64,000 nucleotides of DNA from Selaginella tamariscina. Lineage: Eukaryota > Streptophyta > Lycopodiopsida > Selaginellales > Selaginellaceae. Each line of letters starts with the position of its first letter. The stretch's first letter is position 1. The translations under genes were made by a program, and so were the position numbers. Shown here one piece after another: positions 1 through 42,471 of the stretch. Location: positions 34,604 through 98,603 of the forward strand of contig PUQB01000627.1 in NCBI GenBank assembly GCA_003024785.1, read 5' to 3'. Under the pieces are notes generated by a model that saw only the letters and a list, made by a program, of their open reading frames with translations, was not told the origin of the DNA and searched no databases.

Positions 1-221
1 TTACTAATTAATACTTAAGTTTTAATTATTAATTAATCATTTAATTAATATGTAATTAAGCCTTAAATATTAATTAATTAATTAATCCTTCAATAACCTT
101 ACTTAGTAAGGAATATTCCTAAAATATCTTAGAATATTCATATTATTCTAAAAATAGTTTACAATAATGAAGAAATACTATCAAACATAATTACAAATGA
201 AATCATTTTCTTATCAACATG
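1..221. other. AT-rich stretch with GAATATTC cluster, possible end of element A
   Basis: This stretch is made of TTAATTAA-like runs, with no gene. Around 108-150 it holds several GAATATTC/AATATTC words. Similar clusters lie near 14.60-14.65 kb and at both ends of the Mutator-like element (15.88-15.93 and 24.05-24.10 kb). I infer that this may be the subterminal part of the large element that reaches about 14.7 kb. Its outer end is either here or off the window; no terminal inverted repeat was found. Confidence 0.3.
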
Positions 222-1406
222 TTAATTTTTTATAAATACTTTCTTCCTATTACAAAGAAATCTTTTCATTTTGTCTAAATCATCACTCTCCGGATTAATC
301 AAATCATTTTGGTCAATATCTTGATGTTGTTGCCACCACTTAACACTCTCACGAATGCAATTGGGAGTTGCCATCCTTGTTAATACATAAGATGTGATAA
401 GAGAAGGTCTGCATAAAGGCTCATCTAAAAACTGACGTTCCTTAAGAATAATATTATAAAGCGCCCGGTTGCTATCCTTCATTTTATAAAATTCAATATC
501 ACGAGAAAGAAAAGCTTCAGGAAATGTATGATACGGTGGATACTGCTCACAAAAATTTTCGAGATTCTTCTTTCTGAGGCACGTATCCAAGTAGTTCACT
601 AGCTCATCCATGATATCGATCAGAATATGGATCGAAAGTGATTGGATGAATACAAGCAATGTTTTGGTTGAGCATAGCCTTCTGAGGAGAGTCGTCTACT
701 ACTAAGATCTGTGCATTCTTCATTATCCTTAAGCGACTGATCTCCCCATGAGTCCCAATTATTCTTTCATTCTTGAAGAAGTATGGCTTGCTTTCCTTTC
801 TTATATTGTGAAATTCGAGAGGTTTATAACATATTCGCTGGTCAAAAATCCAATCTTTACGAATCACCTCTTCTGCAACACTACAATGTTTCTTAAGTAA
901 ATTCAACAGCGGTGTTAAGTTATGAATCTGCATGCATGACCAAATCCCCACAAGCGCACCCATCTCCTTAAGCTTTTGAAAGAGACGATCCAACCCTGGA
1001 CGAAAAATAATATCATATCGAAATTTACCATGACAAGGAATGAAATCTCCTTGTTTGATTTCTTTTTTCTATCCTCGGGCCTTTGTCGATGAAGCAGAAC
1101 ACCATTGACATCCAACAACACAATATGGCCATGAGTAACATGAGATAGCGTTGCCTCTTGAATACTTTGCAAATCACTTGTTTGCTCCCTTTCACATTTA
1201 TCCGTTGCCACTATCTCGTTGCCTATCCCTTCATCATTTAATTGTACATCATCCTTACAAGATTCAGATATTGCATGCGCTGAAGAAATTGATTTCGGAA
1301 CTGAAGCCAATAAAAATGATGATGAAGTGGCCCCCATGGTAACGATGTTTTGAGCTGCATTATTATCCATTTCCTGCATGAACTCTGTCATTCTGACATG
1401 TGGCAC
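222..1406 (-). CDS. FCP1/NLI-interacting-factor-like HAD phosphatase domain protein (frame-broken)
   Basis: The domain is assembled from three overlapping minus-strand frames. The N-terminal ~90 residues (1,406 to ~1,130) are acidic and low complexity. The HAD motif I follows as LLDVNGVLL near 1,090-1,110. Next come a conserved 'GLDRLFQKLKEMGALVGIWS' stretch (~960-1,010) and the late HAD motif ILVVDDSPQKA (~680-705), followed by a C-terminal helical tail ending at 222. This order fits the FCP1/NIF family, which dephosphorylates proteins such as the RNA polymerase II CTD. In motif I the second Asp of DxDxT/V is Asn (DVNGV), so catalysis is uncertain. Single-base shifts near 640 and 1,030 break the frame; one may be a small intron. 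The gene lies 3' of the ParB-methyltransferase gene on the same strand and may be cargo of the same element or an independent gene. Confidence 0.6.
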
Positions 1407-1659
1407 AAGAAATTGTCGCCAAACCCCTCTCTTACCTCATGCAATGCTGAAAATCCATGTTCTCAATTATTTCATTACATCTGCAAAATGATAATTAGCT
1501 GACCTTAAAATTATCAAGGTATATTATTTACCTTGTTAATGTGTGACCCATGTTTGAACTAAAAGCTTCATTAATCCTTGAGAATTTATTTTCTGTACAA
1601 ATATAAAAGAAATATACAAAAATGCCTTATGTTACACTCATTTACAACTATTCATCACT

Positions 1660-4525
1660 CTAACAATTCATTATCAATTCTTCTTCGCTATTACCTTCTG
1701 AGTGAGGCGAAGAAGGTCTAAGCCGCTTGTGAGATGGTTCAAGATCTTCTGCATCTTCTATTGATGTTTCCATGGGTCCTGGAGTGTGCGAATGTTCTGT
1801 ACTCCTCGAGATAACTTCCGGTCTAATATCTGATTGAAGTTCGTTCTCAGACTCCGAGATTGAACCAGATTCACCTTCAGAGCTATCGCACTTATCTGGA
1901 GGGAACTTTCTCAAATACGCCTTTATGGATTCGTTGGGGTACTCAGTTGAGACCCAATCTATCCACTTGTTCAGGTCCTCAACCATGGTCTTATCCTTTC
2001 AACGGCAAACACACATGTATGCCGAAGGTAACACTCCTTCAAGACGGACCCCCTAGTGCAGTAGTCAAAAACCCACGCATCACTGTGAGGACCCCTGATC
2101 AAGTTGACGATGCTCCGTGCCGCTTGACTTGTAATGTTTGGATAACGTACATTGCCGAATACGTCACTCATACCTATCGGTGTATCGGATGGAGGTTCAG
2201 GGCCGTTGGAGTGCAAACAGATGCCTGGCCAGTCATTTGGAAGCTTGAAATTGTTTGGCGCATTCCTAACAACCAAGTGAACAACGTATCAATGCACTTG
2301 GGATTAGCATCGTTCATATAAAATCCTGTCCAACGATGTCTATTCTTCTTGGCGAAGGCGAAGGCAAAAGTATCGGTGACATGAGCAAGAATCAAGAAAT
2401 AAATACCTGAAAAAGTAGGTATCAGTGAAGAGCGCAAGCATGAATTCAATAATAAATACCTTCTATGTATATGCTTGCACGGCTAAGTTTCTCCACCAGA
2501 TCCTCTAGTGCCCTATCTGTCGAAAGATTTTTTGACACCCGCCGATCCATCACGAACAATTGAAACGGTTTCCTACAAGCAGTGATGTTACCCCATAAAG
2601 TCTCCGAATCTAACAACAAACATCTGTAGGGCTTGTCGTGATTCGTAGCATCCTCCTTTATAAGGTTCAATTCGGTTCTCCGCTGCTGAAGGACTGCCAT
2701 AAGAGAAGGCGTCATCCCAATGTTCTCCTTTTTGGCGTTGGCGTGCAATAGATTCTTGCCTAGATCTTCCGATTGGTTCACCCATTCGACAAGCATATCA
2801 TCGTTCGTCACATGCAAATATTTGCTGACCTCTTCATATGTTGAAGTCGAGGTCCAACCCAGTTTGTGGCAGTGTATTCCCAACCACTCCTTGAAATGCC
2901 TGACCGTCTTCAACTCCATTGCCTTGAGATGAAAAGGAGAGGTTGGGCTGCTGTTATTAATTTGTAGTTTGCCATCGATCACCAAATCAGCCAAGACTTC
3001 CATCTCCTCCATCGTTGTTCCATTTAAAGGCTTCAACCATGTGAGCTTGAAATCGTTGTCTACATCCTTTAGATTGAACAGACTTAGCCTTCGGCGTCTT
3101 ACTGGGTTTCTTTGCAGACTTTCTGAGGGCTCCCCTTCACTTGTCTGCTTCTTCTTCAGTGTTCCTTTTGAAAAGGATTCCATAATCCCCAACCATTTGG
3201 CAAAGATCCTATCTTCGGGGCAAGAAATCAACATCATCAGAAAGGATGTTTCCTTCCCGCCCACCTGGGCAAAATCAACTGCTGCAATTTCTTCAACTCT
3301 CTGAGGAAAAAACAGATTAATATACCGGCGAGATAAATCCCGCCCAAACAATTTGCTTACCCGGTATTCCGCAGATTGTGTATTCCCTGCGGTAGCTCTT
3401 TGTGGTCGCTGAAGAGATTCCCACACGGCTCGCGTGTGTTTAAACTTCTCCCATATTTTGCTGTTGTAGTGGTTGGTGTCGGCAGCGTCCCATTCCGCCG
3501 ATAACTTATGGTACTGCTCGATTGTGAGATTCGGCTTAGCTAAAAACGCCGATCTTTTTGTCAGCTTCTCACGGGTATGCTCGGAAAGTTTTGTTGCCAT
3601 CGTTCCTTTGTTGTGTTCATCGAGAAGTCGTTGGGCTGCCGTTATTGTGTGCTGGCCACTAATGATGTAGTACTTGATAGATTTTATTCTCCGTCTGAAT
3701 CTTCATGAGTTGTTCTGGTGTTGTGATCCAGACTTTGTCAGCGCCCTTCCTTCTTTCATAGTATGGACACAAAACAGCATTATGTGGAACGGTATAAGAA
3801 TTGTCGTCCTTCATCTTCTCCATGAGCTCAGCTACACGTTCCTGGTTGAGTGGCCTGTAATTGAAGTTTGGGTTGACGCTGCAATATTTAACCCTACAAG
3901 GATAAATCTTATCATCCAACATCATTTCCTTGTGACTTATTGCAGCATGAGATGCCACAGGTGCAGCTGACAAAACGATTGATGATTTTCTTTTGCGATC
4001 CGAATCAACATGTGTGATCCCCGACTGCAGCTGTTCTAGTGTTCTCGGCACACTCTTCCAGCTCCCAAGCTTCCTAAGCAAATTGAACGTGATCTGTAGA
4101 GAACCTGAGACCGAGCCACCCTTCAATCTCCTTATGATGTCGCTGTGTTCTTCTTCAATGTGAAGAGGGAAGATTGCTCCACTTGCTGATTTTCTGTATT
4201 GTGAAGCAATATCTCCTGACAATACACCTACTCGATGAGTCTGAAGATCTTCGAAGTAGACATCCAGATGGATCCCCTCCATAGATGGGCTTTCGTTGAG
4301 TTGAAGAAGAACTCCAAGGTCAACATCATTAGTGAACACGTGAACGTCATTATCCACAAGTCGACAAAACCACCCGAAATTAATGTTGTAACTGACGACC
4401 TCTGGATCCGAGAACGTGACATTGGATGGAACAAGGCATATGTGTCGAGCATCGTCCAATCTGGGTTCGCAGCCTGCTTTCGGGTGCTTGACTAGCGAAC
4501 ACTTTCCATTGTTTTGCTTGTCCAT
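1660..4525 (-). CDS. ParB-like domain plus degenerate DNA methyltransferase-like protein (element A)
   Basis: Three main blocks are read on the minus strand. Block 1 (4,525-3,659) has a ~200-residue N-terminal region without a recognised domain, then a segment with RPLNQERVAELMEKM. This is followed across a frame change near 3,650 by ISGQHTITAAQ, which matches the shape of the ParB/sulfiredoxin-fold 'I-x(n)-dGxHRxxAa' core. Block 2 (3,600-2,446, 384 codons open) continues the post-ParB helices. Block 3 (2,440-1,660) contains VFDYCTRGSVLKE and, 12 residues on, CVFAVER, which resemble methyltransferase motif I and the following acidic strand. The tail is Ser/Glu-rich. An in-phase change near 2,260 and an intron near 2,450 are needed. 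A catalytic D/N-PP-Y motif is not evident. The gene is divergent from the palindrome array starting at 5,096. Parallel architecture with the gene at 16.2-19.3 kb supports the domain call; each part alone is weak. Confidence 0.5.
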
Positions 4526-5095
4526 GAGATGTGACAGAGGTTAATTTGACAGCAACCATGGTTGCTCCAATGCGCTTCCCATTTATTTAAAATATGGCCA
4601 AGTTGATTCCAGAATCCCCCTGCCCATCTCTTCTCCTGCTCTTGTCTTTAATGTCACCTCAATTCCACATCTGAATACAAAAATGATTAGTTCAAGTATC
4701 CGAGTATAACAGATTTTATTTTAATTCTTACCCAGAATTTGACGACGACTCCATACTAATGACTCGATCTCCTTGTTTGATCAAATCGTCCTTCTGCAAA
4801 ATAATACACTATGAATACAAATCATATAAAAACGCACACACACTTGTATAAACCCGAATATACAAAAATAATACACAGAGAGAAGTAGACGTAATTAACT
4901 GTCCGAAGCTCACATTTGTGTAGTGCAAAAGAAAGATAACATTTCGTTTTAGAACCACCACAAATGTGAGCTCTGGACAGTTTTACATAGATTCCTAGCT
5001 TTTACTCGAAATATTATGATAAGATGATAAAAGTAAATAAAATGAGATATGCAACTTATATATACTAATACACATATATATTCACATGGAAGGTG
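4526..5095 (-). promoter_or_regulatory. 5' leader/promoter of the ParB-methyltransferase-like gene with a possible short exon
   Basis: On the minus strand there is a plausible small exon at 4,732-4,793 (acceptor TTTTGCAG, donor GTAAGAAT). It carries an ATG reading MESSSNS. A second acceptor (ATTCAG) lies at 4,671-4,672, upstream of open sequence that closes before 4,525. The true start could therefore lie in this short exon rather than at 4,525. The rest is AT-rich and separates the gene from the palindrome array by about 570 bp. Confidence 0.35.
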
Positions 5096-6663
5096 CGGCG
5101 GGATTAATCTCGCCACCCCTTCAATGCCTCCTGAAAGAGTGGGCGGGATTAATCTCGCCACCTTTCTGGAGGCCTTGAACGGGAGTGCGGAATTAATCTT
5201 GCCACCCTTCTCGGTCTCAGAGAGAACTGGGCAGGATTTATTTCTCACACCCCTTCAGTGACTCCAGAAAGGCGGGATTAATCTCGCCCACCATGTAAGG
5301 GATGGTTAAATGAATTTCCCACCCTTCCCAATTCTCTCCATTGGTATGTTGTAAACCTTCTACGTCTCAGACAGAAACGTTTGGGATTGGTCCGACTCAC
5401 CAATGGAGAAAAAAGGAAGGGTGGCGGGATTCATTCCTCCAACAGGCATTGAAGACTCGGCGGGATTAATCCCGCCGCCCAGGGCCTTCACTCGGTCCCT
5501 ATGCGGCGGGATTAATCCCGCCGGACGCCAATTCCCTGCGCGGAATCGGGCGGGATTAATCCCGCCGCCTAGGCACTTCAGGCAGGCCAATGGCGGCGGG
5601 ATAAATCCCGCCCGATTCCGCGCAGGGCATGCGTACGCGCGGGATTAATCCCGCCTCCCAGGCCCTTCACTCGGGCCTTAGTCGGCGGGATTAATCCCGC
5701 CGAACGCCAATGCCCTGTGCGAAATCTTGCGGGATTAATCCCGCCGCCTAGGCCCTTCAGGCAGGCCAATGGCGGCGGGATAAATCCCGCCCGATTCCGC
5801 GCAGGGCATGTACGCGGCGGGATTAATCTAGGCCCTTCACTTCGGCCGTAGGCGGCGGGATTAATCCCGCTGGACGCCACCTTTCTCGTTCTCAGAGAGA
5901 ATTGGGCAGGATTTATTTCTCACACCCCTTCAGGGGCTCCGAAAAGGCGGCAGGATTAATCCCGCCCACCATGTAAGGGATGGTGAAATTAATCCCACCA
6001 CCCTTCTCAGTTCCCTCCATTGGTATTTTGTAAACCTTCTCCGTCTCAGACAGAGTTAGTCGGGATTGATTCAACATACCAATGGAGGAAAAAAAGAAAG
6101 GTGGCAGGATTAATCCCGCCACCGGGCAATGAAGGTTCAGAGATTAATCCCGCCGCCCTCTCGTAAATCATGCGCTCACACATATATATTGGCTGCGGGA
6201 TTAATCCCGCGGCATTTTGAACAGGGATGGGTGGGGGCGGGATTAATCCCGCGGCATTTTGAACAGGGATGGGTGGGGCGGGATTAATCCCGCCGCTTAT
6301 ATCCTGCGGAAATGCCTGAGCGGCGGGATTAATCCCGCCGCCTCTGCTAAGGGCATGAGCGTGGGGCGGGATTAATCCCGCCGTTCATGTCCTGCGTGAA
6401 TTCCTTGGGCGGCGGGATTAATCCCGCCACCTTACGTGCAGGACATGTCATGCAAGCTCTTCGGTTAGCCTTCCGTGCAGGATCTTTCATGCAAGCTCTT
6501 CGGTTAGCCTCATGAGCGGCGGGATTAATCCCGCCGCCCATAGCCTGCGTGAAGGGCCTCGGCGGCAGGATTAATCCCACTGCCATGGCCCTAACCATAT
6601 AGCGGCGGGATTAATCCCGCCGCCGAGGCCATAAACCTATAGCGGCGGGATTAATCCTGCCGC
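5096..6663. repeat. Palindrome array 1: about 28 copies of GGCGGGATTAATCCCGCC
   Basis: The 18-bp perfect palindrome GGCGGGATTAATCCCGCC and its variants recur about 28 times by eye. In 5,450-5,870 the spacing is regular, at about 44 bp. Later copies are spaced about 40-110 bp apart. The central GGATTAATCC is best conserved; flanks vary (GCGG...CCGC, GGCAGG...CTCGCC). Spacers include repeated words such as CAGGCCAATGGCG and GATTCCGCGCAGGGCATG. Because the unit is palindromic it gives GGINPA/AGLIPPP reading frames on both strands, which are not genes. It is a GC-rich island in AT-rich DNA, directly upstream of the ParB-methyltransferase-like gene, and would be a natural binding or modification site for that protein (inference). 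Confidence 0.95.
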
Positions 6664-6689
6664 TCGAGGGGCTTAGCGTGTGTGCGAGA

Positions 6690-6765
6690 GATAAAATTAA
6701 TAAATAAAAAAATTATACAGATAAAAACACACACATATATATGTGTGTGTGTGTGTAATATAATA

Positions 6766-6826
<61 letters not shown>

Positions 6827-7915
6827 TGTATGTATATGTATAGGAGTGTACGTGTGTGTGCAAGAGATAAATAAATAAATAAAATTATACAGTACTGGTA
6901 CACATAATATATGTGTGTACATAGGTATATATATGTGTGTATATGTATATCGTGTGTATGCGTGTGAGCGAAACAAATAAAATCATACAGATAAACAAAC
7001 ACACACACACATATATATACACAGGAGTGTGCGTGTGTGTGCGAAAGATAAAACTAATAAATAAATAAAATTATACAGATAAACACACACATATATATGT
7101 GTGTATAGATATATAACCCATAGAGAAAGAGAGAGAGTCTGTGAATATATAAGCATATATATAAACTAGTGTTGTATACTATTTATTAATATGCATTGAT
7201 ATATATATATATGTAAAGCAGTGTGCGTGTGTGTGGGAGAGATAGATAAATAAAAAAATTATATAGATACTGGTACACATAATATATGTATGTATATATG
7301 TATAGGTATATATTATATTGTATATGTATATGTTGTGTATGCGTGTGTGAGCGAAACAAATAAAATCATACAGATAAACAAACACACACACACACACAAT
7401 ATATACACAGGAGTGTGCATGTGTGTGCGAGAGATAAAACTAATAAATAAATAAAATTATACAAATAAAACACACATATATATATGTGTGTATATAGATA
7501 TATAACCCATATGATATATAAGCATATATATAAACTAGTGTTGTATACTATTTGTAATATGCATTGATATAATATATATATATATATATGTAAAGCAGTG
7601 TGCGTGTGTGTGGGAGAGATAGATCAATAAAAAAAAATTTATAATACTGGTACACATAATATATGTATGTATATATGTATATAGGTATATATATATATGT
7701 GTATATGTATATCGTGTGTATGCGTGTGTGAGCGAAACAAATAAAATCATACAGATAAACAAACACACACCACACACACACATATATATACACAGGGGTG
7801 TGCGTGTGTGTGCGAGAGATAGATCAATAAATAAATATACGCACACTCCTATACATATATACATACATACATATACACACACACACACACACACACAGAT
7901 CTCACCTGTGTGCAC
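6690..7915. repeat. Composite microsatellite block with ~380-bp higher-order period
   Basis: Long (AT)n, (TG)n, (AC)n and GTGTGCGTGTGTG runs dominate. They are organised in a longer unit that includes CAGTGTGCGTGTGTGTGGGAGAGATAG-like sequence, ACTGGTACACATAATATATG and GTGTATGCGTGTGAGCGAAACAAATAAAATCATACAG. The long unit is seen at about 6.86, 7.22 and 7.60 kb, giving a period near 380 bp. Open frames here are repeat artefacts. A GCCGCCGCCG patch follows at about 7,917-7,948. Confidence 0.85.
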
Positions 7916-9085
7916 AGCCGCCGCCGCCGATTTCACAGCCGCCGCCTCTTGAAACCCTAAGAATATACCTAAACCCTAAAGGAATTAAATATATATATTA
8001 ACCCTAATAGAATATTCCTTCTGAGAATATACTTAAGCCCTAAAAAGAATAAAATATAGATTCGCCCTAAACGAATATTCTTTCATTATATTATTAGCGT
8101 GCATGTGCATGGGTGTATCACACCCCAAAAATATAAATCATGCAGGGATTTAATATGTGTGTGTCCATGAGAGTGTTAAAGTTTCATGTGTATCAATACA
8201 TACATACACATTGCATATATTAATACACATAATATATACATACACATGTATACACACAGACATACATACATATTACATGGGTTTAGGGTTTAGGGTTTAG
8301 GGTTTTGGATTTAGGATGGATCATGCATGGTGTGTATGTATGAGAGAAGAGAGAGTGTTGAAAAATTATTTTTGTACACATTGCATATATTAGTACACAT
8401 TATACTTACACATATTATACACAGATATACATACATAGTATATGAGAGAAGAGAGACAGTACATATTATGGATCATGCATGGTGTGTATTATACACACAG
8501 ACATACATACATATTAGTACATAATATTAGAGAGACCGAGTACATATTATAGATCATGCATGGTGTGTATGTTTGAGAGAAGAGAGACAGTACATATTAA
8601 CATGGATCATGCATGGTGTGTATGTATAGAGAAGAGAGAAAGTACACATATATACATACAGAGTACACATATATACATACACACGTGTATACACACAGAC
8701 ATACATACATATTACATGAGTAAATTCATTGTGTTACATATTAGGGTTTAGGGTTTAGGGTTTAGGATGGATCATGCATGGTGTGAAGAGATAGTTTGAA
8801 AAATTATTTTTGTACACACATGTATACACAGGGTTTAGGGTTTAGGGTTTAGGGTTTGCTCCCAACAAGCTTAATATAAATATTACACATGTAAATTCAA
8901 TGTGTTACATACACACAGATTGAGTACATATATCATACATGCGTTGAACATGATGTTTTCAATAAAGAAGCAACATATTTCTTCAGTTTGGTTTAGGGTT
9001 GTGCATGTGTGTGCATATGTGTTTTTGTAAGTTCTTGTAATGCGTGTGTAAATTTATGATTGTGTTTATATATGTGTGCAAAACA
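7916..9085. repeat. Telomere-like TTTAGGG clusters among microsatellite-like DNA
   Basis: Three tight clusters of plant-type telomere repeat (TTTAGGG)3-4 lie at about 8,279-8,305, 8,742-8,766 and 8,828-8,858, all in the same orientation. Scattered single AAACCCTAA or TTTAGGG words occur at 7,954-8,040 and 8,990. Between them a short unit 'GGATCATGCATGGTGTGTATG' plus GAGAGAAGAGAGA recurs at about 8,316, 8,468, 8,553, 8,603 and 8,768. No gene is recognisable. Short interstitial telomere motifs are common in plants and need not mean a chromosome end. Confidence 0.8.
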
Positions 9086-9835
9086 AACATCGAATAATTA
9101 AGAAAATAATATTAATAAACACACTATGAACATATTTTAAATTATACATATATATATGATTTTATCTAATATATAGCCATATATAGTTTTAATAATATAT
9201 TAATTTAATATTGATAAAAAGGTTTAACATTGAAATATTCTTGAAATAATAAGAAATTAATTGAGAAAATCCCATTAATATATACAAATGTAAATTAAGT
9301 ACTCAAATAATTAACTAAATTATTATTATATAATCATGTTTAATATTGGAATATTCTTGAAAAATAAGAAAATAATAAAGAATATCCCATTAATATAAAG
9401 AAGATTAATTACTCAAGTAATTAAGGAAATGATATTAATATACACACTATGAACATATTTTAAATTATACATAATAATACATCATTTATCTAATATATAG
9501 TCATATATAGTTTTAATAATAATATATTAATTTAATATTGATAATAAGGTTTAACACAGGAATATTCTTGAAATAATAACAAATTAATTGAGAAAATCCC
9601 ATTAATATATACAAATGTAGAATAATTACTGCAATAATTAAGAACAAGACTAATTTAATTATGATAATCAGGTTAATATTAGAATATTCTTCAAATATTA
9701 ATAAAATAATAAAGAATATCCCATTGATACTAGGAAATGAAAACTAAATACTCGAGTAATTAAGAAAATAATATAATAAACAGACTATGAATATATTTTA
9801 AATGATACATAATAATATATCAATTTATTTATTGT
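9086..9835. repeat. AT-rich ~330-bp tandem repeat
   Basis: The string 'ACACACTATGAACATATTTTAAATTATACAT', followed by TAATATATAG(C/T)CATATATAG and later GGAATATTCTTGAAATAATAA and AAATCCCATTAATATA, occurs at about 9,120 and 9,440, with a diverged third copy from about 9,780. The period is close to 325-330 bp. No coding potential is visible. It lies between the telomere-like block and the second palindrome array. Confidence 0.75.
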
Positions 9836-10262
9836 ATAAGTATATATATTATATATATAAATATACTTGAATACTAAGAATGTAGAATATAGTCTAAAAT
9901 TTTGTAATATTAAACAGCTTGAATCACTTGAATATTAAATGCAATTTTAAAATACTCATTGGAACTAGAGTATATATGTCAGAGTGTCGGATATTTGTGT
10001 CAACTCATCTTATTTTCTGTTCTTTTTAAAAAATTTGAATTTTGACATATGTATTGTCGGTCTGACATGTAAATTTGAAAATGCATTTAATTTCCCACTC
10101 AAATTCAGATCTGGTTCTTTCTCCGGCAAGGGTTTCTTCATTTCTGTATTTTTCACTCTTTAGATCTTCTTTTTTCTTCATAGTGATCATCTCAGGAGCG
10201 AGATTAAATTGGGTGCTATTCTTTATAGGAAAGCACGGCGCCTTCAGTGCTGTTTACAAGTA
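9836..10262 (+). other. AT-rich DNA then possible 5' leader exon of the DUF7869-type transposase
   Basis: An open stretch at 10,075-10,262 ends at a good splice donor (CAA/GTAAGTATT at 10,261). The next strong acceptor is TTTATGTGCAG at 11,113-11,123, just before the transposase coding frame. This may therefore be a leader exon, with the second palindrome array lying in its intron. The encoded end GKHGAFSAVYK resembles a kinase glycine loop but nothing else supports a kinase. Confidence 0.3.
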
Positions 10263-10423
10263 AGTATTATAAACAAATTTAAAAATACTTATAAAGATTC
10301 ACTCTCTTACATTCTCTCTTAAAATTACAATTTAGGGGTTTAGGAATGCATTAGGATTATAATATATTCCGTTAGGGATTTATCCCGTTTAAATATCCTT
10401 TTAACTTAATATTCTAAGTTAAC

Positions 10424-10979
10424 CGGGGCGGCGGATTAATCCGGCCATTTCTTTTTCGCCTTTCGAAGAGGTGGCGGGATTAATCCCGCCACCATCTCTC
10501 GGGCAATGCTTCTCCGCCACTGAAAAAGATGGCGGGATTAATCCCGCGATAACCTTCTCAACTGATGAAGAGTTACCAGAATTTATTAAAAGAGTTGTCG
10601 GCGGATTAATCCCGCCAACCATTTTAGGAGGCAGGGAAGGGGTGGCGGGATTAATCTCGCCACCACTCCCTGTTTTAAGGATTTGGGACAGGATTTATCC
10701 CGAGATCTCTTTGAAATCATAGTTTTGGAGAGAGTTATGTGCGGGTTTAATCCCGCCACCCATTCCCCGTCGTAAGAATTGTGGGCGGGATTAATCCCGC
10801 CTTGGACTCCCTCCGACAAGGAAGAGCGGCGGGATTAATCCCGCCGCCTCTTCCTCCTCGGGGGAGTCCGACGGGATTAATCCCGCCGACTCTCTCCGAA
10901 GGGGTTGAGTCGGCGGCGGGATTAATCCCGCCGACCGTTCCTCGTCGGAGGGATTCGTGGGCGGGATTAATCCCGCCCA
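10424..10979. repeat. Palindrome array 2: about 12 copies of the same GGCGGGATTAATCCCGCC unit
   Basis: About twelve copies lie at approximately 10,425, 10,471, 10,529, 10,599, 10,643, 10,686 (degenerate), 10,741, 10,784, 10,826, 10,870, 10,914 and 10,959. The last six are spaced at about 42-45 bp. The unit is the same as in array 1, 3.8 kb away, although the intervening DNA is unrelated. The array ends about 140 bp before the acceptor of the transposase coding exon, so it sits either in the promoter or in the 5' intron of that gene. Spacers here contain CTCCCTCCGACAAGG-like words not seen in array 1. Confidence 0.95.
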
Positions 10980-11130
10980 TCAGTTGTATTAATCAAACAT
11001 GAGATATTATCTCTAAACATAATTATGTATTATTGCATATGCATATTATTAAGTAACCGTAATTCAGATTTCTTAAAATATTGCATAAACAGATATCATA
11101 AATAATACAATTATTTATGTGCAGGACAAT

Positions 11131-14100: not shown

Positions 14101-14236
14101 AACATGGTCTCCCAATCAAAAAGACCCAGCATGTTTTATAAATGTTAAATCCATTCGATATGGGTGGATGTCAAGAAGCGTTGATAAAGTCACGATTAAC
14201 AAAACTGCAAGGGAATGTATGTTTTCTGAAGCTTAA
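11131..14236 (+). CDS. DUF7869-type putative DDE transposase with N-terminal DUF8039-like repeats
   Basis: The start is chosen at the Met after the acceptor TGTGCAG (11,123). Residues 1-~230 hold two similar modules (starts GDKVCLLR... and DEVILFLREIEVGRG...). They resemble the DUF8039 module found in plant transposon proteins. A frame change near 11,840 leads to the main domain: IHDKMDHSK (~12,570), then QMDNCAGENKN (~13,030), a 54-bp intron (13,063-13,116), YVLAYLSMLVAKGVFE and FLMVGHTHE followed by DAFFSKVS (~13,190-13,230). These are the hallmark Asp-, DNxxGxNKN- and GHTHxxID-like motifs of the DUF7869 family, taken to be a DDE/RNase-H-fold transposase. Further frame changes at ~13,215, 13,570, 13,640, 13,960 and 14,135 are needed. 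The last open segment closes with TAA at 14,234-14,236. The gene is divergent from the ParB-methyltransferase-like gene, with both palindrome arrays between them. Confidence 0.7.
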
Positions 14237-14742
14237 AGCAATTACAAAATTATAAAATATCATATATTTAATATTCATAATTATTATAAACTCTTTAATA
14301 ATAGTACCAAATTGTATACTTAACTATATAAATTTAAAAAATGATATGGAAGATTGACTATATTATTATAGGATTTATATATATATTATTACTACTACAA
14401 ATTTTTAATTAATAATGTTATATTTAAATATTAATATTTTAATAACAACATCAATATTATATAATGTACCTCTTATGCTCTTCCTTAATTGTTATATTAG
14501 GCAATATATTATATAATTTAATACCTTCTACTTTTATAATGTTATTAATTTTTGTTCAATGAATGCTATAATTATTAAAGGGTAGAATACAAAATAGAAT
14601 ATTCTAAAGAATATTCTATTTTCAAACATATATCTAAAGAATATTCCTTTAATATTAGAAAATGCTAATTAAATAGCTAAAATTACTAATTATAAGAAAT
14701 GGACTATATCCATGCCCATTTTAGTTACAACTTGCATTAATA
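14237..14742. other. AT-rich spacer with GAATATTC cluster, likely right end of element A
   Basis: No gene is seen. At about 14,590-14,650 AATATTC/GAATATTC words recur, as near base 110-150 and at both ends of the Mutator-like element. Similarity to the LRR-kinase units begins abruptly at about 14,743-14,747. The boundary of the large element, or of the segmental duplication, must lie at or just before that point. Confidence 0.4.
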
Positions 14743-15172: not shown

Positions 15173-15539
15173 AAAAATCCACATGTATTGGGACCCCCAC
15201 AGAATCTTTCTACACATTAACAACATTGACGGACTGGCGTTTATAGAAAGACCAGGGTTTGCATGTTATTGCTTGAGGAAGTTTTCTTAATATCACTGAC
15301 GTGTACACGGGATTTGGAACACGGGATTTGGACTTTGAAGTTGCCGTTGTTCTTGGCAAGATAAATTAAGTTAATATCCCTTTGCATAAACAAATATATA
15401 AATAATTATATTGACAGTGATAATAAAGGTATTGAAGATTTAATTAAATATTTTAATTTAGTAAAAAACTTTTCTATAATTAAAGAGAAACATAATTGTA
15501 AATAAATTTTATTTATACTTAAAACCACGATATTTATTA

Positions 15540-15836
15540 TATCTGTCTAAGTCTTTTTTCACGGATTGTAATTGTAATGGGGCATTTTCGGAGAGATTAA
15601 GAAAATGTACTGTTTATAAGACGTACCTGTGACATCGTTAATCATATAGATAGATAACACCCATCATAATATGCATTAACGCTTGCGTGTGTGTGAACAT
15701 TATGTATATACTAGTAGCTTTAGTTTATAGAGTACACATGCACTCACACGCACGCACGACACACACCTGGGCTCCATGCTGTTAATGGCCTCAAAATCTT
15801 CTTGTGATAAAGACCAGTTGAGATATACATAATCTC
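15540..15836 (-). pseudogene. Aldo-keto reductase copy 1, C-terminal exons (left of the Mutator-like insertion)
   Basis: The last AKR exon (about 15,540-15,630, complement of GTGCGTCTTATAAACAGTACATT-like sequence) and the distal half of the penultimate exon (about 15,767-15,827, encoding [14 protein letters not shown]) are present. The exon is interrupted at the 9-bp duplication CATAATCTC. The other half of the same exon is found at about 24,232-24,305, 8.4 kb away. The gene cannot be expressed intact. Confidence 0.85.
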
Positions 15837-16157
15837 GAGTGTCGCCATTTTGGAGGCTTGGGGCCCAGGAGGCCTGGGCTCGAATATTCAAGAATATTCT
15901 AGAATATTTTGGAATATTCTTTCTGGTCGGGCAGTATTGGCCTCAGTCGGCAAAAAGAATTCTATTAAAACGGTTGTATTTCTTTTTAATTTTTTTTTAT
16001 ATTAGCTTAATTTATTAACTCAATATACATTAGCTAAAGTTTTCTCATCATCTTAAGTAAAGCGCAGTTCTCGAACCACCAGTTACGCTTGACGTGGAGG
16101 TTTTGAGTAGGAACTCTTCTGGTCTAATGTTCTCTGCAAGCTGTTTGTTGCCAACCT

Positions 16158-19100
16158 AGAGAGTTCGAAACTCTTCTCGGTTCCTATAAATTCCTTCCGA
16201 TCGACGGCAGGCTAACAATGATGACCCGGTTCCGGAACCAATATCCCAGACTAGGTCGCCAGGTCTACTGAGACGCTCGATCAAAAGCTGCATGAGTCGA
16301 ACACTCTTCGGTTGAATCATAATCCTGCACAATCTTCCATTAGGATAAACATAGCAAAGCACTTCCTTACCAAGCCTCCTGATAACGGTCGGCAGTGTCG
16401 ACGAGGATCGTGTTCGTCAACGCCAGAGGGTTTGGCCTCTTCGACTTCTTCTCAGAGCTTTGCAGCACCAAGAGAACTAACAAGTTATCCTGCCACATAG
16501 ACCAAGTTAAACTTGAACTTGAATAGCTAGCTTACCTTAATTTTGTCACGGTATCCCCAGCCTCGTGCACGGTAGACGCTGTAAGTCCCTGCAACCTCCA
16601 AGTTGATTACTGCAGCCGCCTGAATCACCGCCGAAACAGAAGGAGAACTCGCGAAGACGACCATGAAACCACTCGCTGCCAAGTGCATTCCACTGAACTG
16701 CAAGGCCTCCTCAAACTTCACCGGATCTAGCTGCACAATGTCCTTGTTGATGCTAGCACCTCCATATACAAGCTCATTGGGCAAGTCGAGGATGATGAGG
16801 TTGAAGCCGTATTCACCTACCACTTCCTGGAACAACGTTTGTGACTCAACCGTATGTAGTCTGTCAACCTGTTCTCGGAGCTTGGTGTACACCTCTGTCT
16901 GGGAAGCACCTGGCTCGAAGAAAGACCTGCTCATCTCCTCCATGTCGCACACAGCTAGGTCGTAGGATCCACGGGATGCAGCCAGGGTCGGGATGAAGGT
17001 CATCAGGTCGTCCTTGATGTCCAAACTAGCTACAAGTGGCTGTACCTCATTGATTGTAAAGTCGAATGCCGGCGGAGGTGCTGTAGAAGAGCTTGGTCCC
17101 GCTCCCGATCCCTTTGCAGGTGTAGTTGTCTTCCGCACCGTCTTCTTCATCTTGCTCTTCTTGATAGCCTCTACTTCTTCTGGCTCCCAAACAATCGCTG
17201 GTAGATCATTGGCGTGCATGTCGAATAGTGTGCTCTCCCAAGCTGGTGGCTGTTGCGACGGACAGTCGAGCCAGAATGGAACATGCTCCCGTTCGAACGG
17301 TGTTAGAGCTCCTCTGCTCTTCGACCACATGTGAGGCTCGCTTGTATGATCTGTCCACAGCTTCATCGTATGGGACGGTGTCATTTGCTTCGCCAGTATG
17401 AACCTGCAACACAAAGTCAGACAGTAGCAATGCTGGATTGAAAGCTTACCTCCATATCATCCGACGCGCAGATTCCTCACGCTCCAGAAACTCATTCGGC
17501 TCCATCGAATAAGTGAACCGTATGCAGTCATGGAAGGGCTGAAAGACCAGGCACTTGCTCCGAATTCTCATCTCGTCAAACCAGCTCATGAAGTCGACAT
17601 CCGTTCCAACTTCTTCACCATCCTCTCGCAACCCCTTAAGGATCTGAATGGCTTCCTCGCGCACAGCCTTCCAATATAAGTCCAAGGTGAACCACTTGAT
17701 CCACTCTTTGTCCTGCATGCCCGGTAGCCCAAGTGTCTGTTGTTCTGCCTTGGATTCGAGACGGGTGAGCTTGTTGAGGTATCGGAGTCGCAGCATGTTT
17801 GGAATCTTCGCCCTTGACATCGCATACAGCTTCTCAATGCCCATCCAGCGACACTGCTTATGAGAGATGTTTGTCACCTTCTGGAACCACTCCTCCCCAA
17901 GTCTGGGTCTATGATGGAGAGGAACTTGTGCATACGCTTGTCATGCTTCTTGTATACTAGCTGCTTAGGTTCACCTCAACCTGTGGATTGCCCTTAGCAC
18001 TGGTGACTGCTCTGTCGAGATCATCGTCGATCTCGTTCTGCACATAGAACAAGTTAAAAATTTCTTTCCTATAAATTAAATCGGAGGTTACCTTGAAAAG
18101 TATCTTTGCGCAGATCAGGTTCGGAAGAGGATGCCAAGCCGTCTTTCCTGATGAACTCTCCTTCCACTTCCGCACCTCAAGACGATCAACCTCCGTGAGT
18201 GACTCGAGGATTTTCTGAGTTCCTTCTGTACTAGTGCAGACCGCCTTTACAGCGAGGAGAATATGTGGTAGCGTTGTTTCCACAGATGTTGCTGAAGATC
18301 TGTTCAACGAAACTGTAAGTCTAAACTCTTAACAAAAAGAAAAGAAAATACTCACATGTTAATCGATTGGAACATCGAAACCAGTTGAAGAATGTCGAGG
18401 TTCTCCGTGGAGATGAAACTCGATCGAACGCGAATAGCCCATCGCTGGTTGTCCTCTGCATCCTCTCGGTACAGCTTCTGCAAAGCCTGTAGCCTATGGT
18501 TCCCGTCCCAGCAGCTAAACTTCCTGTTTGAGAGCCTTGAAGCCCACTGTTTGTACTCCGGCTGAGTAAGAGCTTGCTCGAAAGACCGGTGCTGCTCGTA
18601 CTGAATCGTGTCCTTCGACAGCTCCGATAGCTCCTCAGCAGTGAGTCGATCTCCGATGGACAGAATGAACAAGGCCGTGTTGCGTAGATAACCAGCCTTC
18701 TTCAACGATGACACCAGCCTGTCCAAGTCCCCTGGGTTCACTCGTCGAACCACCTCGTTGGAATGTATTCTGCAGATGGGCACATCAGGAGGATCACCAA
18801 GTCCCTTGATAGTAATTTTGTCGAGCAGGTTTGCTGAGCTCTCCAAATGCAGGCTCGCCGGTATGCTGTATAACTCCTTCGGCTCCTTATCGCTCTTCGC
18901 CTTCTTGCCTTTTGAATCAGCTTTCCCGCGGCCTCTCTTTTGCTGACTGCCTCCTCCAAGTCGTCCTCGCTAGCTTCAGCTGCCTCTGTCATCTGCACTT
19001 GCTCGTTCAGGACTGCAACCTCAGCGGATGAAGGAGGCAACTGCGACGAGCTCTCCGGGAAATCTGTGATTGTTGGTGGAGGCTGTTCTTGCTCAACTGC

Positions 19101-19250
19101 TACTACTCCAGACTGAGTCACTGGAGGATCCTCCTTTGGTACATTAGATGGTTCTCCTCTCTTGCCTCGCTTCTGCTTCGATATCCTCTTCTCTTCCCGT
19201 GGCTCTTCATCAGGCGCAGTCTCTAGTAGACGTTTTGAAGCTCTCACCAT
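16158..19250 (-). CDS. ParB-like domain plus DNA methyltransferase (N4/N6-type) protein inside the MULE
   Basis: Multi-exon minus-strand gene. The start is taken at the Met of MVRASKRLLE (19,250), followed by a basic, nuclear-localisation-like tract (KRISKQKRGKRG). The next ~130 residues are low complexity. From ~18,790 the ParB-like domain runs: VPICRIHSNEVVRR, DLDRLVSSLKKAGYLRNTALF, then FSCWDGNHRLQALQ (~18,480-18,520), matching the ParB core with its DGxHR signature. A helical middle (18,307-17,446, intron about 18,031-18,090) follows. The methyltransferase-like part has FNLIILDLPNEL (~16,770-16,800) in the place of catalytic motif IV and LAASGFMVVFAS after it. Then, across introns, IQPKSVRLMQLLIERL and LVWDIGSGTGSSLL (~16,220-16,290) give AdoMet motifs X and I in the beta-class order. 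DLPN in place of (D/N/S)PP(Y/F/W) makes activity uncertain. ParB-methyltransferase fusions are familiar in phages and bacteria. Frame changes near 18,850 and 18,310 are required. Confidence 0.7.
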
Positions 19251-19336
19251 TTTGGGAACTCTGGAAAGTAAACACACAAGTCAATTGATGAGGAGTCAAA
19301 ATAAAAAAACAAACAAAGATGACTAACCTTGTGGCT

Positions 19337-20295
19337 GCCGACTCAAGCTAGATGCTGCCGACCCTCTCAGTCGGCAGAGAGATGTAGAAGAAAAAACCTG
19401 CCGACTGAGATAGTTTGTGCCGACTCTGTCAGACGGCACAGAAGAGATAATGGTGCCGACTGAGATAGGATGGTGCCGTCCCTCTCAGACGGCACAAATG
19501 GGAAGACCCATTAACTGTTTTAAAAGAAATACTTGAGACGCAAAGAAAAAAAAAACTAATTCAAAATACCTTGTGGCTGCCGACTGAAGAAGGATGGTGC
19601 CGTCACTCTCAGTCGGCACAAATGGGAAGACACTATAACTCTGAAAAAAAACATTGTTATACGGATACTTGAGCCGCAGAGCAAAATATAAACAAATTCA
19701 AAATACCTTGTGGCTGCCGACTGAAGAAGGATGGTGCCGTCACTCTCAGTCGGCACAAATGAGAAGACACATTAACTCTGAAAAAAAACAATGTGATACG
19801 AATACATGATCCAGAAAGCAAAAAATAAATATATCGAACATACCTTGTGGCTGCCGACTGAACTAGGATGGTGCCGTCACTCTCAGTCGGCACAAATGGG
19901 AAGACCCATTAACTCTGAAAAAAAAACCTTGTGATACGAATACTTGAGCCAGAAAGCAAAAAAAAACAAATCGAAAATACCTTGTTTTTGCCGACTGAAC
20001 CAGGATGGTGCCGTCACTCTCAGTCGGCACAAATGGAAAGACCCATTAACTCTGAAAAAAAAACATTGTGACACGTATACTTGAGCCGCAAGGAAAAAAA
20101 TAAATAAATCGACGATACCTTGTGTTTGCCGACTGAACCAGGATGGTGCCGTTGCTCTCAGTCGGCACAAATAAGAAGACCCTATATCTCTGGAAAAAGA
20201 AATACTTTGAGCAGCAAATCATAAAATACAGAAATTACACATACCTTGTGGCCGCCGGCTGAGCAGGATGGTGCCGAGAATCTAAATCGGCACAG
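19337..20295. repeat. Hairpin repeat array: nine TGCCGACTGA...TCAGTCGGCA units
   Basis: Units lie at about 19,339, 19,398, 19,453, 19,578, 19,715, 19,852, 19,989, 20,127 and 20,250. The middle units are tandem with a period near 137 bp (ACCTTGTGG, hairpin, AAATGGGAAGAC, then an A-rich spacer). Each hairpin has 10-bp arms TGCCGACTGA / TCAGTCGGCA around a ~20-nt loop usually containing GGATGGTGCCGTCACTC. The first and last units are degenerate. The array fills the space between the divergent ParB-methyltransferase gene (start 19,250) and the MULE transposase (start 20,792). It therefore corresponds in position to the GGCGGGATTAATCCCGCC arrays of element A, but with a different sequence. Open frames in it are repeat artefacts. 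Confidence 0.95.
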
Positions 20296-20791
20296 AAATC
20301 TCCATTGTTATACTTGGGCGCTGCACGAATCGAGTCGAAATGGATGGCGCCGCAGTGGAAACCGTAACTCTGAGATCTGAGATTAAAGAAACCCTCTGGA
20401 TCTACCGCAGTGGAAACAGATCTGAGATTGAAAGAACCCTAGCCGCAATGGAAACAGTAAACCCTATCTACCAAAAAACCCTAGCCGCAATGAAAACAGT
20501 GAACCCTACGGAATAAATGTGACATTAATATTTAGGGTTTATTTTAAAATATGTGAATAATTGGTAAATGTGAAGATATTTCAAATCATAAAAGGTAGAA
20601 ATTAAATTAAATCGGTGATACTAGAGAGGACATCATTAAGAACACTGTGAACTGGGCAGCATAGAATTAATTATATACAAACGTGTATTCACGTTTATTG
20701 TTAACGATTGTAATTTTTTTTTGGTAAGAGAAAGTGTGTTTAATCTTTTGCTTTGCTTTCCTAAACCACCGAGCTTTCTCCTTGCGTTGTC
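20296..20791. promoter_or_regulatory. Promoter/leader between hairpin array and MULE transposase
   Basis: The stretch at 20,340-20,510 repeats 'CCCTAGCCGCAATGGAAACAGT'-like phrases three or four times. It could be the minus-strand gene's leader or a transposase-binding region. The part from 20,520 to 20,790 is AT-rich, ending in a C/T-rich leader before the ATG at 20,792. No further gene is visible. Confidence 0.4.
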
Positions 20792-23700
20792 ATGGCCAGA
20801 GTTACCTATGAAGGCATTGACAAAGATTTCCCAGTCGATGAAGATGGAAATGCTTTTGTGTTTGAACATGATCTTCACATTGCTTTCAACATTCCTTGTT
20901 GGTTCAGTATACATGTGGTTCAATTGATGTCAGTTTCTGCGAGTTCTGGAGAAGATGTGGAGTTGTTACCAGAAGGCAATGCATCAAACCAGTTTGTCTT
21001 TTACACATTGTGCCCGGCAAAGGGCCCGTTGTTCAGGTTGCGGACAGAGGAGCGTGAGGAATCCATGCTGGTGTGTCTTCTAAGAGCAGACAAATGTAGG
21101 ATAGGGAAGGATCTCATTGGTTCGTCTGAAGTTAAACGAGTCTCTGAACTACCGCAGATATACAATGGAAATGTCATTTTCGAACTTCCCCCTAAGACAG
21201 AAAGCACAGAGAAGTACTCGGGGATGAATCGCAAGGATGGCTGCTACCATTGGACACACCCGAGCACAACACACTGGCATGTTCCGGCGCGAGTCAGTCG
21301 AAGTTCATGTGTCGGACATCTCCAATGCATCAATCCTACTGCCCCTACTTGGCTTTTGAGAAGAAAGCAAATGAATGTCACTTCAAGGGTGCTGTGGAGA
21401 AGGCAAAGACAACTGAGACAGGCAAAGTAATAGGCATAAAATGTAAGCATTGTGGAGAGGAGCCATTGCTGGTGCACACTTGTCCGGCTTATGTGTACTA
21501 CATTCTGCCAGACGACATTTCTTTTACAAGGTTGTTCATTCACAGAGGTGTTCATCAGCATCCAGTCAGCCCCTCAGTGTCAGCTTCAAACGTTCAGCGA
21601 GCCAGATCTAGTGTCAGCAACGTGGTAAAGAGCAGTCCGCGAACCAATCAACGAGTGATTGAGTTTCAAGCCGCGCGTGAGCTCATCTTTGAAGAACTTT
21701 TCAAGGAAGAAGGAGAAGTCTCGTACACTGGTTTACTCTCAAAACTTGAACCTCTAACAAACCATCGAAGGTATTTTTTTTAGATCTCTACACACTGACG
21801 TGACCTTTTCTTTAGGACTCGGGACTGGATTACACAATCAAGACAGAAGGAGACACACTTTAGAGAGGGTTACGAGGGTCTTCTGGAGCTGAAGACAAAG
21901 CTGCCAATACCTTTCATTCACGTCATACATGTTCCAGGGATGGAACTGCATGGTGCTGAGGAGCAGCCTCTGATCTTCAAAATGACAGTTGAGGGACCGG
22001 GTTCAGGAGTTGAGTACATCAGAAGGTGTCAAAGTGGAGGAGACCTTCATGATCAATGGGTTGTTCTGGACCACACGCACCGCATACCAGACTGGGCGAC
22101 AATTGGAATACACCTTTATGACCCATTGTAAGTTGTAAAACTCTTCATAACACTTTCTAATCTTCGTTATCTAACGCTCTCTGTGTCAGTGTCAGATCCA
22201 TGGTGGACTATAGCTTACGCAGATATGTGCCGCGAAGATAATGTTGCAGTGCTGAAGTTCTTGAACACAATGCTAGGGTTTGTAAGAAGCAGGGTTTGAT
22301 GGAGAATGTCAACTTTGCTGGTTTCATGTCGGATGAGGCTGGAGCGATATGGATAGCCTTGCGCCAAGTATTCAACAACGGAGCAAAGATGAAAGGGAGG
22401 GAAAGAAGCTGTCTGTTTCACTTTATGCAATCCGTGCGTCAGGTGACAAAGAAATGGATCGCAGAGAAACATCGCGAAGAACACATGAAGCTTGCTCGTG
22501 CCTGGCCTGCAGCACTGAATGAACAATCTAAGAAAGAACAACTGGCAATTCTCGAGTCTTTTTGGGAAGGACGAGCGTCAAACATTCGAGCTTTGAAGAC
22601 ATGGCTGTCTTGGTGGATCAGGCATGAGGACCACATCTCCATGGCGGAACTGGGAGACATGACAGAAGAAGGACTCGCGAGCGTTCCAACTACAAACAAT
22701 GCTGAAGTGATTCACGCGAGAGCAAGAAGAGCAAGATTGGCCAAAAGAGTACCACTGCTGGAGGCCGACAATGTTAGACCTCACCGATGCAGTTATGCAG
22801 AGTGCGAAGGTGAAAGCGGCAATAGAAGGGAGGTATACAGGGTCAGGGCCTTCGAAGGAAACTCTGTTGAAACGAGTGCAACGCAAACTCTCTGAGGGGA
22901 AAAGTGTATCTCCATCAACAATTTATTTCTGGTGGAAGGCGAGGAACACTTGACCAGCCCGGAGTTCACGGTGACCACTAACGTTCGAGTGCAAACTGTT
23001 AGGAGAACAGTCACAGAACAGAGTCTGATGCTCGACGCACACAGACATGATGTAGAGTACACAGAGCGGTGGTCCAAAACAACAGGAGAAAGAGGTTAAG
23101 GTTCGAAGAGGTTTCGGAGAGAGAGATTGCTCAAACAGAGTGGGCCATCAGACGAATCGGAGCATCCAGTAAGGTTAAGTGTTTGGGGATGAATCAGGAA
23201 GGAACTGCTCTGTGTGGAAAACCAATCGGTTATCCAAGCAGAGTGCCAGCACCAGGATTCTATGGAAAACGAATGTACATTGATGCCTTGGGGAATGAGG
23301 AGTATGTACAACAGATGATGTGGTTCTGCCCAAAAGATTCAGGGTGTTTCACGCGGCCAAACGGCAAATTCTTCGGTCACGTATTCCAACACCACCAACG
23401 GTTTGGCCTGTGCTCAAGGAAACGAAGCTGACAAGTGAGGAGGTCAGAGAACTACAGGATGCAGGCTTTGTTCTGGAAGGTTTACAGGGATGGCAGGAAG
23501 AGTAGATGAGGGTCAGAAGGACAAAACACCATCGCCACCACGTGGAGCTGGATCTACAACAATTCACCTTTCGAAGGACGTATGGTTCGGACTCCAACAA
23601 AAATGTCTAAGGAACAAGAGAAGAATTTCCGCAAGGCCAAGACGTTTTTAGGTTGTGTGCGAAATGTTTGAAGTGACAGCTAGAGGACGGAAGGAAGCTT

Positions 23701-23882
23701 TCGTTGTGTCGGCAGGAAATGACTCTGCAAAGGTGACTATTAATACTTATCCTTCATGCAGTTGTTCTACATTTCAGAAGAGCAAAAGTTGGAGCCCATG
23801 TGTACACATGTACTTCGTCTATAGCCGTGCTTGGCTTGAACCCGGAAGTCACATATTTTCTACAAAGGCGATCGCTCAGTGA
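20792..23882 (+). CDS. Mutator-like (MULE) transposase with zinc-binding N-terminus and SWIM finger
   Basis: The start is the ATG reading MARVTYEGIDKD. The N-terminal half has a Cys/His module ending KCKHCGEEPLLVHTCPAY and IHRGVHQHPV, a GCM/WRKY-like HxH finger often seen in MULE proteins. The DDE part follows: IAYADMCREDN near 22,213-22,243 (first Asp), NFAGFMSDEAGAIW near 22,311-22,350 (second Asp), RERSCLFHFMQS near 22,400, and PTTNNAEVIHAR near 22,688-22,720. A Cys-rich insert (KCLGMNQEGTALCGK ... WFCPKDSGCF) is followed by the SWIM zinc finger SCSCST...SPCVHMYF near 23,758-23,815. The stop is TGA at 23,880-23,882. Introns fit at 21,771-21,815 and about 22,128-22,195. Single-base shifts near 21,250, 22,280, 22,770, 23,095 and 23,420-23,650 interrupt the frame, so as read it is non-autonomous or mis-sequenced. 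Confidence 0.8.
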
Positions 23883-24157
23883 ATGGAGGTCCACCGTTTG
23901 CTGGTGAATTGCAACAGAGTTCATGACCCACCGGTGCTACAAGGATAAATGGTTTAGGGTTTAGGATAATGTCTTATTAAGCCAGTGGACATATATTAAG
24001 CCAGTCGGCGTATATTAAACCAGTCGGCACATTAAAAAAACTTATATATCTAGAATATTCTTGAGAATATGCTAGAATATGCTAGAATACCTAGATAATC
24101 CGCGAATATACTAGAATAATATGAAGCCTCCTGAGCGGAGCCTCCTTTCCCGAGACC

Positions 24158-42437: not shown

Positions 42438-42471
42438 GTCATGAAACAGAAAAGAAAAGGCGGAAGAAAGG

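Follow-up and report, generated by a model that had tools for sequence, protein, structure and literature searches.

The sequence analyzed herein is a 64,000-nucleotide stretch of the Selaginella tamariscina genome (contig PUQB01000627.1, positions 34,604 to 98,603 of the forward strand; hereafter the window), which carries two transposons, elements A and B, each having a minus-strand accessory gene, a plus-strand transposase gene, and arrays of palindromes lying between the two genes. A first-pass annotation of the window had proposed that both elements encode a ParB-like/DNA-methyltransferase fusion protein which binds or modifies the palindrome array of its own element, thereby giving self-recognition. 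The features of element B are as follows.

15837..24157, no strand: element B, complete DNA transposon, with flanks CATAATCTC at 15828-15836 and 24158-24166
15945..15952, plus strand: half-site AGTCGGCA, subterminal at the left end of B
16035..19250 (lower end approximate; ATG at 19250), minus strand: accessory gene, from open reading frames (ORFs), Pfam N6_N4_Mtase, and 55% identity to family C
16156..17456, minus strand: methyltransferase exons, in which motif IV is degenerate (LDLPN) and motifs X and I are intact (GSGTGSS)
18355..18969, minus strand: ParB-like exon with motif CWDGNHRL; fold suggested only, without Pfam match
19336..20290, no strand: palindrome array TGCCGACTGA..TCAGTCGGCA, with five units of 137-138 bp and additional shorter units
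20792..23950, plus strand: transposase resembling those of Mutator-like elements (MULEs), several exons, limits approximate; from ORFs and a relative in family C
24003..24029, plus strand: subterminal pair of half-sites AGTCGGC(A) at the right end of B

Copy L061 matched window positions 15840-24158 at 99.2% over 8.3 kb, which defined an exact repeat unit, and direct repeats of 8-9 bp flanked the window element, copy L066, and L065, a copy of the related family C described below, with just 6 matching bases at L061. In the genome searched (300.7 Mb in 1,391 contigs), at least 150 copies of the ParB-like exon were found (150 scored out of 1,593 first-look candidates), and since most of the scored copies were at least 97% identical and most were free of internal stops, the B family must have been active recently. 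Element B is thus a recently active transposon. The alignment of window B with L061 contained 46 gap openings in 8.3 kb, and many small indels are present in either the assembly or the element copies; a by-eye model of the accessory gene, based on L061, gave a protein of approximately 996 aa encoded by six coding exons with introns of approximately 45-55 nt, the frame of the window copy being broken by small indels. The two genes diverge from the array between them, with the accessory ATG at 19250, the transposase beginning at approximately 20792, and the array at 19336-20290, in good agreement with the layout described in the first-pass annotation. Its assignment of the transposase to the MULEs stood in part: the flanking duplications of 8-9 bp fall within the 8-11 bp expected of this class, but the transposase gave no Pfam MULE domain match, a SWIM finger alone being detected below threshold.

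The array of element B consists of arms TGCCGACTGA and TCAGTCGGCA approximately 21 bp apart, repeated with a period of 137 bp. It contains nine exact TGCCGACT starts, matching the nine hairpins counted previously, but perfect pairing of the 10-bp arms was observed in only some of them. The half-site CAGTCGGCA or its complement, allowing up to one mismatch, occurred 22 times in 8.8 kb, whereas 20 single-base shuffles averaged 1.95.

A genome search with N6_N4_Mtase (150 exons scored of 739 first-look candidates) revealed that most of the scored exons apparently belong to a second family, designated C, whose membership was judged from frame length and match limits, and two copies of it were fetched (L065 and L068). 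L065 follows the plan of element B, with a minus-strand gene, an array, and a plus-strand transposase, and the accessory proteins of the two families share 55% identity over 985 aa. The array of C, on the other hand, is composed of contiguous 22-bp palindromes CCCAGTCGGCATGCCGACTGGG with a period of 39-40 bp; the arms in B face the opposite way, and both the spacing and the surroundings differ. The half-site CAGTCGGCA is nevertheless common to both families, and also occurs with up to one mismatch near both ends of each. Every fetched copy had an array, namely five of B (L061, L064, L066, L067, and L083) and both of C. The core CAGTCGGCATGCCGACTG was found 1,135 times in the genome versus none for the reversed control, and among the matches listed, six of eight CAGTCGGCATGCCGACTG clusters had a methyltransferase match 3.2-3.6 kb away (C10, C58, C69, C72, C90, and C112), whereas clusters C1 and C13 had none among the 150 scored exons. 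Retention of the half-site while the array was rebuilt between B and C is as expected of a protein-binding site, and since two families of unlike array grammar share one half-site, the simplest interpretation is that a conserved protein recognizes the DNA. Copies did differ in the number and the identity of their array units, as would be expected if slippage and tandem duplication had generated the arrays passively and no protein bound them; however, this account leaves the single half-site kept in two otherwise unlike arrays, as well as the invariance of positions 8, 11, and 12 in 130 palindromes of element A carrying up to five substitutions, unaccounted for, and we regard it as distinctly improbable.

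Synonymous sites were saturated between B and C (proportion of synonymous differences, pS, 0.79-0.84), while three accessory exons gave nonsynonymous proportions (pN) of 0.37, 0.33, and 0.23, and two parts of the transposase gave 0.33 and 0.22. The combination of saturated pS with low pN indicates that both genes are maintained; both are under purifying selection, the accessory gene being constrained to about the same degree as the transposase. As B and C share both proteins, these data do not tell which of the two binds the half-site. L068 bears on this point, since its positions 884-7884 carry two C-type accessory genes that flank an array head to head, and the 9.9 kb fetched contained no transposase match; L068 is a rearranged derivative that is perhaps non-autonomous. 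Because L068 pairs accessory genes with an array without a transposase, and because VANC offers a precedent, the accessory protein is favoured as the binder. If the half-sites were instead bound by the MULE-like transposase, which the internal array would titrate or whose promoter it would repress, their occurrence near both ends of B and C and the equally strong conservation of the transposase would be readily explained, but most half-sites are internal, between the genes, the array of L068 would stand beside two accessory genes and no recognizable transposase, and the palindromes of element A in the window are wholly internal. We consider transposase binding unlikely.

Our preferred reading, to which we assign a probability of roughly 0.45, is that the arrays are promoter-proximal recognition sites, predicted from sequence, for an element-encoded protein, most likely the minus-strand accessory protein, with a role in expression or marking. 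A dimer of the accessory protein would bind the half-site CAGTCGGCA of B and C, which is repeated many times in the interval separating the divergent promoters, the single half-sites near both ends would also be bound, and the bound protein would keep the element expressed or mark its own copies. The protein may operate, not via DNA methylation, but like VANC of the VANDAL elements, which are Mutator-like, or like TnpA of maize Spm/En, which, as the second protein of its element, binds motif repeats close to the promoter and the ends and counters silencing. Element A may work alike.

The location of the arrays at divergent promoters would also suit binding sites of host transcription factors, by which the elements could be stress- or cell-cycle-responsive. 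We take GCCGAC to be the plant dehydration-responsive element/C-repeat (DRE/CRT) core, GGCGGGA to be E2F-like, and AGAATATTCT at the ends to be heat-shock-element-like. The window contains 18 AGAATATTC/GAATATTCT matches versus 1.2 expected under a first-order Markov model, 11 of which lie near the ends of A or B, six in the spacer of A, and one elsewhere, and the C copy L065 likewise has such matches near both of its ends. In contrast, the half-site CAGTCGGCA shared by B and C exceeds the DRE core in length and is arranged as long perfect palindromes, and host factors as the binders appear quite unlikely. An RNA role for the array of B seems highly improbable; under this reading, the units would have arisen by tandem duplication of a hairpin-bearing exon in the 5' leader of the accessory gene, with mini-introns between them. 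On the minus strand, most B units do have TTTTTTCAG-like acceptors and CACAAG/GTAT donors, such signals being visible by eye in L067 and L083 as well, a folding energy of -24.9 kcal/mol (z -2.8) was obtained for one unit, and the introns of the accessory gene, as placed by eye, are similarly short; however, the C array, having the same half-site with a 40-bp period, exhibited no such signals noticed by eye, and the half-sites near the ends fall outside the leader.

The C-terminal N6/N4 DNA methyltransferase homology of the B/C accessory protein is real, and the domain assigned to B in the first-pass annotation was therefore confirmed. The last exons of B matched Pfam N6_N4_Mtase over the cut-off (E 1e-8) and PHROG DNA methyltransferases (E down to 3e-11), and a B+C profile aligned by hhalign with seven bacterial and phage enzymes over 189 columns (Prob 99.0; E 4.7e-18, for a single comparison). 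Solved structures, namely MboIIA (E 9e-4), DpnA, and CcrM, matched B weakly (E 9e-4 to 3e-3), and in tblastn searches against phages and plasmids the methyltransferase part alone was matched. With the full B protein, N6_N4_Mtase was the only Pfam match at E ≤ 1, with no match to the VANC family. The homology to the bacterial beta-class amino-methyltransferases MboIIA, DpnA, and CcrM extends across motifs IV-X-I, whereas their catalytic D/N-P-P-Y/F/W is DLPN in B/C; this DLPN replaces the D/N/S-P-P-Y/F/W motif IV in B, C, L064, L066, L067, and both L068 genes. With motif I intact and motif IV altered to DLPN, the fold is kept and the usual base-stacking residue lost, so that methylation of its own array by the B/C protein is doubtful. 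As N6_N4_Mtase spans residues 37-388 of the 400 in gp39 of Corynebacterium phage EmiRose, and the plasmid methyltransferases used comprise merely 214-261 aa, there was no ParB fusion among the comparison enzymes.

Element A, preceding B in the window, has the following features, listed together with the subterminal repeats of both elements.

1..14737, no strand: element A, whose right end is 14737 and whose left end lies immediately beyond the window
604..1436, minus strand: NIF/FCP1-like phosphatase frame(s); PF03031, E 1.9e-7 in ORF 604-1068
1660..4524, minus strand: partner gene with ParB-like N-terminal region (SGQHTITAAQ); from ORFs and a profile match to the B/C exon
3327..3344, no strand: palindrome inside the partner gene, present in 30 of 30 loci at up to four mismatches
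5097..6661, no strand: palindrome array 1, GGCGGGATTAATCCCGCC, 26 copies, often approximately 45 bp apart
10473..10977, no strand: palindrome array 2, the one nearer the transposase, with 10 copies; also in the copies on contig C1
11119..11928, plus strand: short ORF preceding the transposase, without any Pfam match over cut-off
11838..14150, plus strand: DUF7869 transposase (PF25273); frame broken in the window
131, 14596-14638, 15882-15912, and 24052: AGAATATTCT repeats; also in copies L061, L064, L065, L066, and L067

All 39 other long matches to window 13700-15100 end at 14724-14755, 23 of them at 14737, and the terminal sequence of copy L063, spotted by eye as the inverted right end, represents the left end of A. 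Searches with 24-mers at up to two mismatches gave 1,812 sites for the partner gene and 2,083 for the transposase versus none for the controls, corresponding to approximately 1,800-2,100 copies. The transposase was identified as DUF7869-type in accordance with the first-pass annotation, since three unjoined ORF pieces each scored over the PF25273 cut-off (E 2e-8, 2e-10, and 6e-9; 4e-38 when joined). The frame of the partner gene is broken at approximately 3659-3702 in the window and open there in L003. At up to three mismatches, the window holds 37 GGCGGGATTAATCCCGCC palindromes, comprising the 26 and 10 of the two arrays, whose presence had also been described previously, and the one in the gene at 3327; their 16-bp core GCGGGATTAATCCCGC occurs exactly 31,192 times in the 300.7 Mb versus none for the reversed control. 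Among 30 A loci picked by gene match (L001 being the window itself), 28, window included, carry palindromes on the 5' side of the gene, the misses being L011 and L027. Among the matches listed (contigs C1-C108; the first 100 places each for gene and transposase), 52 of 73 exact A-gene sites had the transposase as expected, giving at least 52 pairs, and four were otherwise arranged. On contig C1, all five array-bearing segments (in four places) run into A gene or A transposase sequence. Together with the array-bearing copies of B (5/5) and C (2/2), these counts confirmed that genes and arrays travel together.

Several side observations were made on these elements. The NIF/FCP1-type phosphatase frame is a further accessory gene of element A, absent from the earlier description. 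A spacer rich in CA/TA microsatellites lies between the two A arrays (6670-8730), also in the C1 copy. Subterminal AGAATATTCT repeats stand near the ends of A, B, and C despite the differing transposases, and B has perfect heat-shock-like GAAnnTTCnnGAA elements.

A ParB-like domain in both proteins was the other part of the proposed fusion. A B/C profile compared with three plasmid ParB ORFs scored 26.0 over 38 columns, a value reached by one of 200 column shuffles; with a set of four ORFs, which included L079, apparently in the wrong frame and left out of the three-ORF set, it scored 26.3 over approximately 40 columns versus a maximum of 18.5 in 40 column shuffles. This short-profile signal, although weak, suggested a ParB fold in B/C. 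The A profile showed no match to the same plasmid ORFs, and tblastn of the ParB parts against phages and plasmids gave one match at E 4 or none. The N-terminal region of A, however, aligned in order with the B/C ParB exon over 123 columns, including YYIISGQHTITAAQRLL with FSCWDGNHRLQALQKLY; the score of 20.8 was equalled by one of 300 shuffles, the reversed sequence gave half of it, and four other exons gave 10.2-17.4. These results suggest that a ParB-like domain may be common to A and B/C.

A methyltransferase in the A partner gene, for which the C-terminal part bears a resemblance by eye, found no support: in one reading of the broken frame, 96 of 300 shuffles scored as well against methyltransferases, and in the second, 13 of 300 did so; with B/C alone as the target of the second reading, the number rose to 75 of 300.

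Against the preferred reading, in which the accessory protein binds the arrays in both elements, the following points must be weighed. Conservation between B and C is equally strong for the transposase and the accessory gene, and the former could itself be the binder. Pfam ParB matches were absent from both the A and B proteins, and a ParB_N search of the 300.7-Mb genome gave no matches while 10 of 14 control genomes were positive. The A protein gave no Pfam methyltransferase match, and its comparison with B/C over the whole length was not significant (Prob 0.3%); because the A methyltransferase is without support, the same domain order claimed for A and B is unproven. Furthermore, no A palindrome lies near the element ends in the window. 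Finally, CpG decay in old B copies was as strong in the array as elsewhere or stronger, being 0.41 in the array versus 0.41 and 0.45 elsewhere in L064, 0.26 versus 0.12 and 0.02 in L066, and 0.42 versus 0.23 in L067, values for which the repeat units of the array were possibly aligned out of register; CpG decay as a trace of anti-silencing was hence rejected, the arrays having lost CpG about as fast or faster, with no lasting protection.

The original idea of self-recognition through binding or modification of the array thus survived in part: the co-travel of genes and arrays and the retained half-site speak for it, but the degenerate motif IV makes modification by the B/C protein doubtful, CpG showed no protection, and a methyltransferase in A is unsupported. 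The bridge from A to B/C consists of position, orientation, and the faint ParB-like match, and is tentative. In a more specific scenario, two unrelated transposase classes would each have been paired with a ParB-like/pseudo-methyltransferase and a palindrome alphabet of its own, the protein no longer methylating DNA but clamping on or spreading from the arrays, in a parS-like self-recognition that keeps copies expressible; this scenario is unlikely.

Elsewhere in the window, ORFs at 28-48 kb and 61 kb presumably encode leucine-rich repeat (LRR) receptor kinases and a pectate-lyase-like protein, and Ty3/gypsy-like retroelement frames (gag, protease, reverse transcriptase, and integrase) were spotted by eye on the minus strand at 37981-42509. 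Rfam gave nothing at the gathering threshold. In a 5.8-billion-protein collection, searched by requiring shared 5-residue words and scoring at most approximately 8,000 candidates per query, no relatives outside the own genome were found for an A gene exon, the B protein, or a three-row B/C alignment (to E 10), and among solved structures nothing below E 9 was obtained for the A protein and the ParB part of C.

Compared with known systems, the palindromic sites and a GxxR-like motif are shared with bacterial ParABS, which, however, has a ParB_N domain, for which no significant match was found in the 300.7 Mb, and ParA, of which none was recognized by eye here, no search for it having been made. 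TnpA of Spm/En belongs to another superfamily and has no methyltransferase fold, unlike the B/C protein. Nonspecific nicking activity has been reported for a ParB-methylase from Bacillus cereus, residing in its ParB domain (PMC5512222).

A close counterpart is the Sola1-1_Ec32 transposon of Ectocarpus; the published account describes, for one Sola1 family, an opposite-strand gene for a 1104-aa ParB-like + N4C/N6A methyltransferase protein, cites similar green and red algal proteins, and proposes binding and epigenetic modification of the own transposon (PMC12477816). B and C resemble the algal transposons in having an accessory gene opposite the transposase, an N6/N4 methyltransferase domain, and a large prokaryote-like protein, but differ in the plant host with a MULE-like transposase, in the palindrome array between the genes, of which the accessible Sola1 text makes no mention, in the degenerate motif IV, and in a ParB domain that is suggested only. 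Both the gene type and the self-modification idea have therefore been published already. The palindrome arrays, the kept half-site with rebuilt arrays, the degenerate motif, and the plant MULE setting were not found in the literature searched, which mostly excluded subscription papers. New here are thus the plant setting, the palindrome arrays, and the conserved half-site, in families B and C that are real, abundant, and recently active. Two proteins that share a single half-site, arrays of two grammars, and numerous near-identical copies make B and C together a ready test of the proposed recognition.

VANC of the Arabidopsis VANDAL elements is likewise encoded by an accessory gene and binds dense, element-specific, non-coding motif arrays that evolve by tandem repetition (PMC5735166). 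Its motif, however, is the 9-mer YAGTATTAY in same-orientation arrays, whereas the arrays here are palindromic and the protein is unrelated by Pfam. If the arrays of B and C are bound by the methyltransferase-fold protein, plants would possess a second, unrelated solution to the problem of sequence-specific self-recognition solved by VANC, one built from a prokaryote-type DNA methyltransferase fold.

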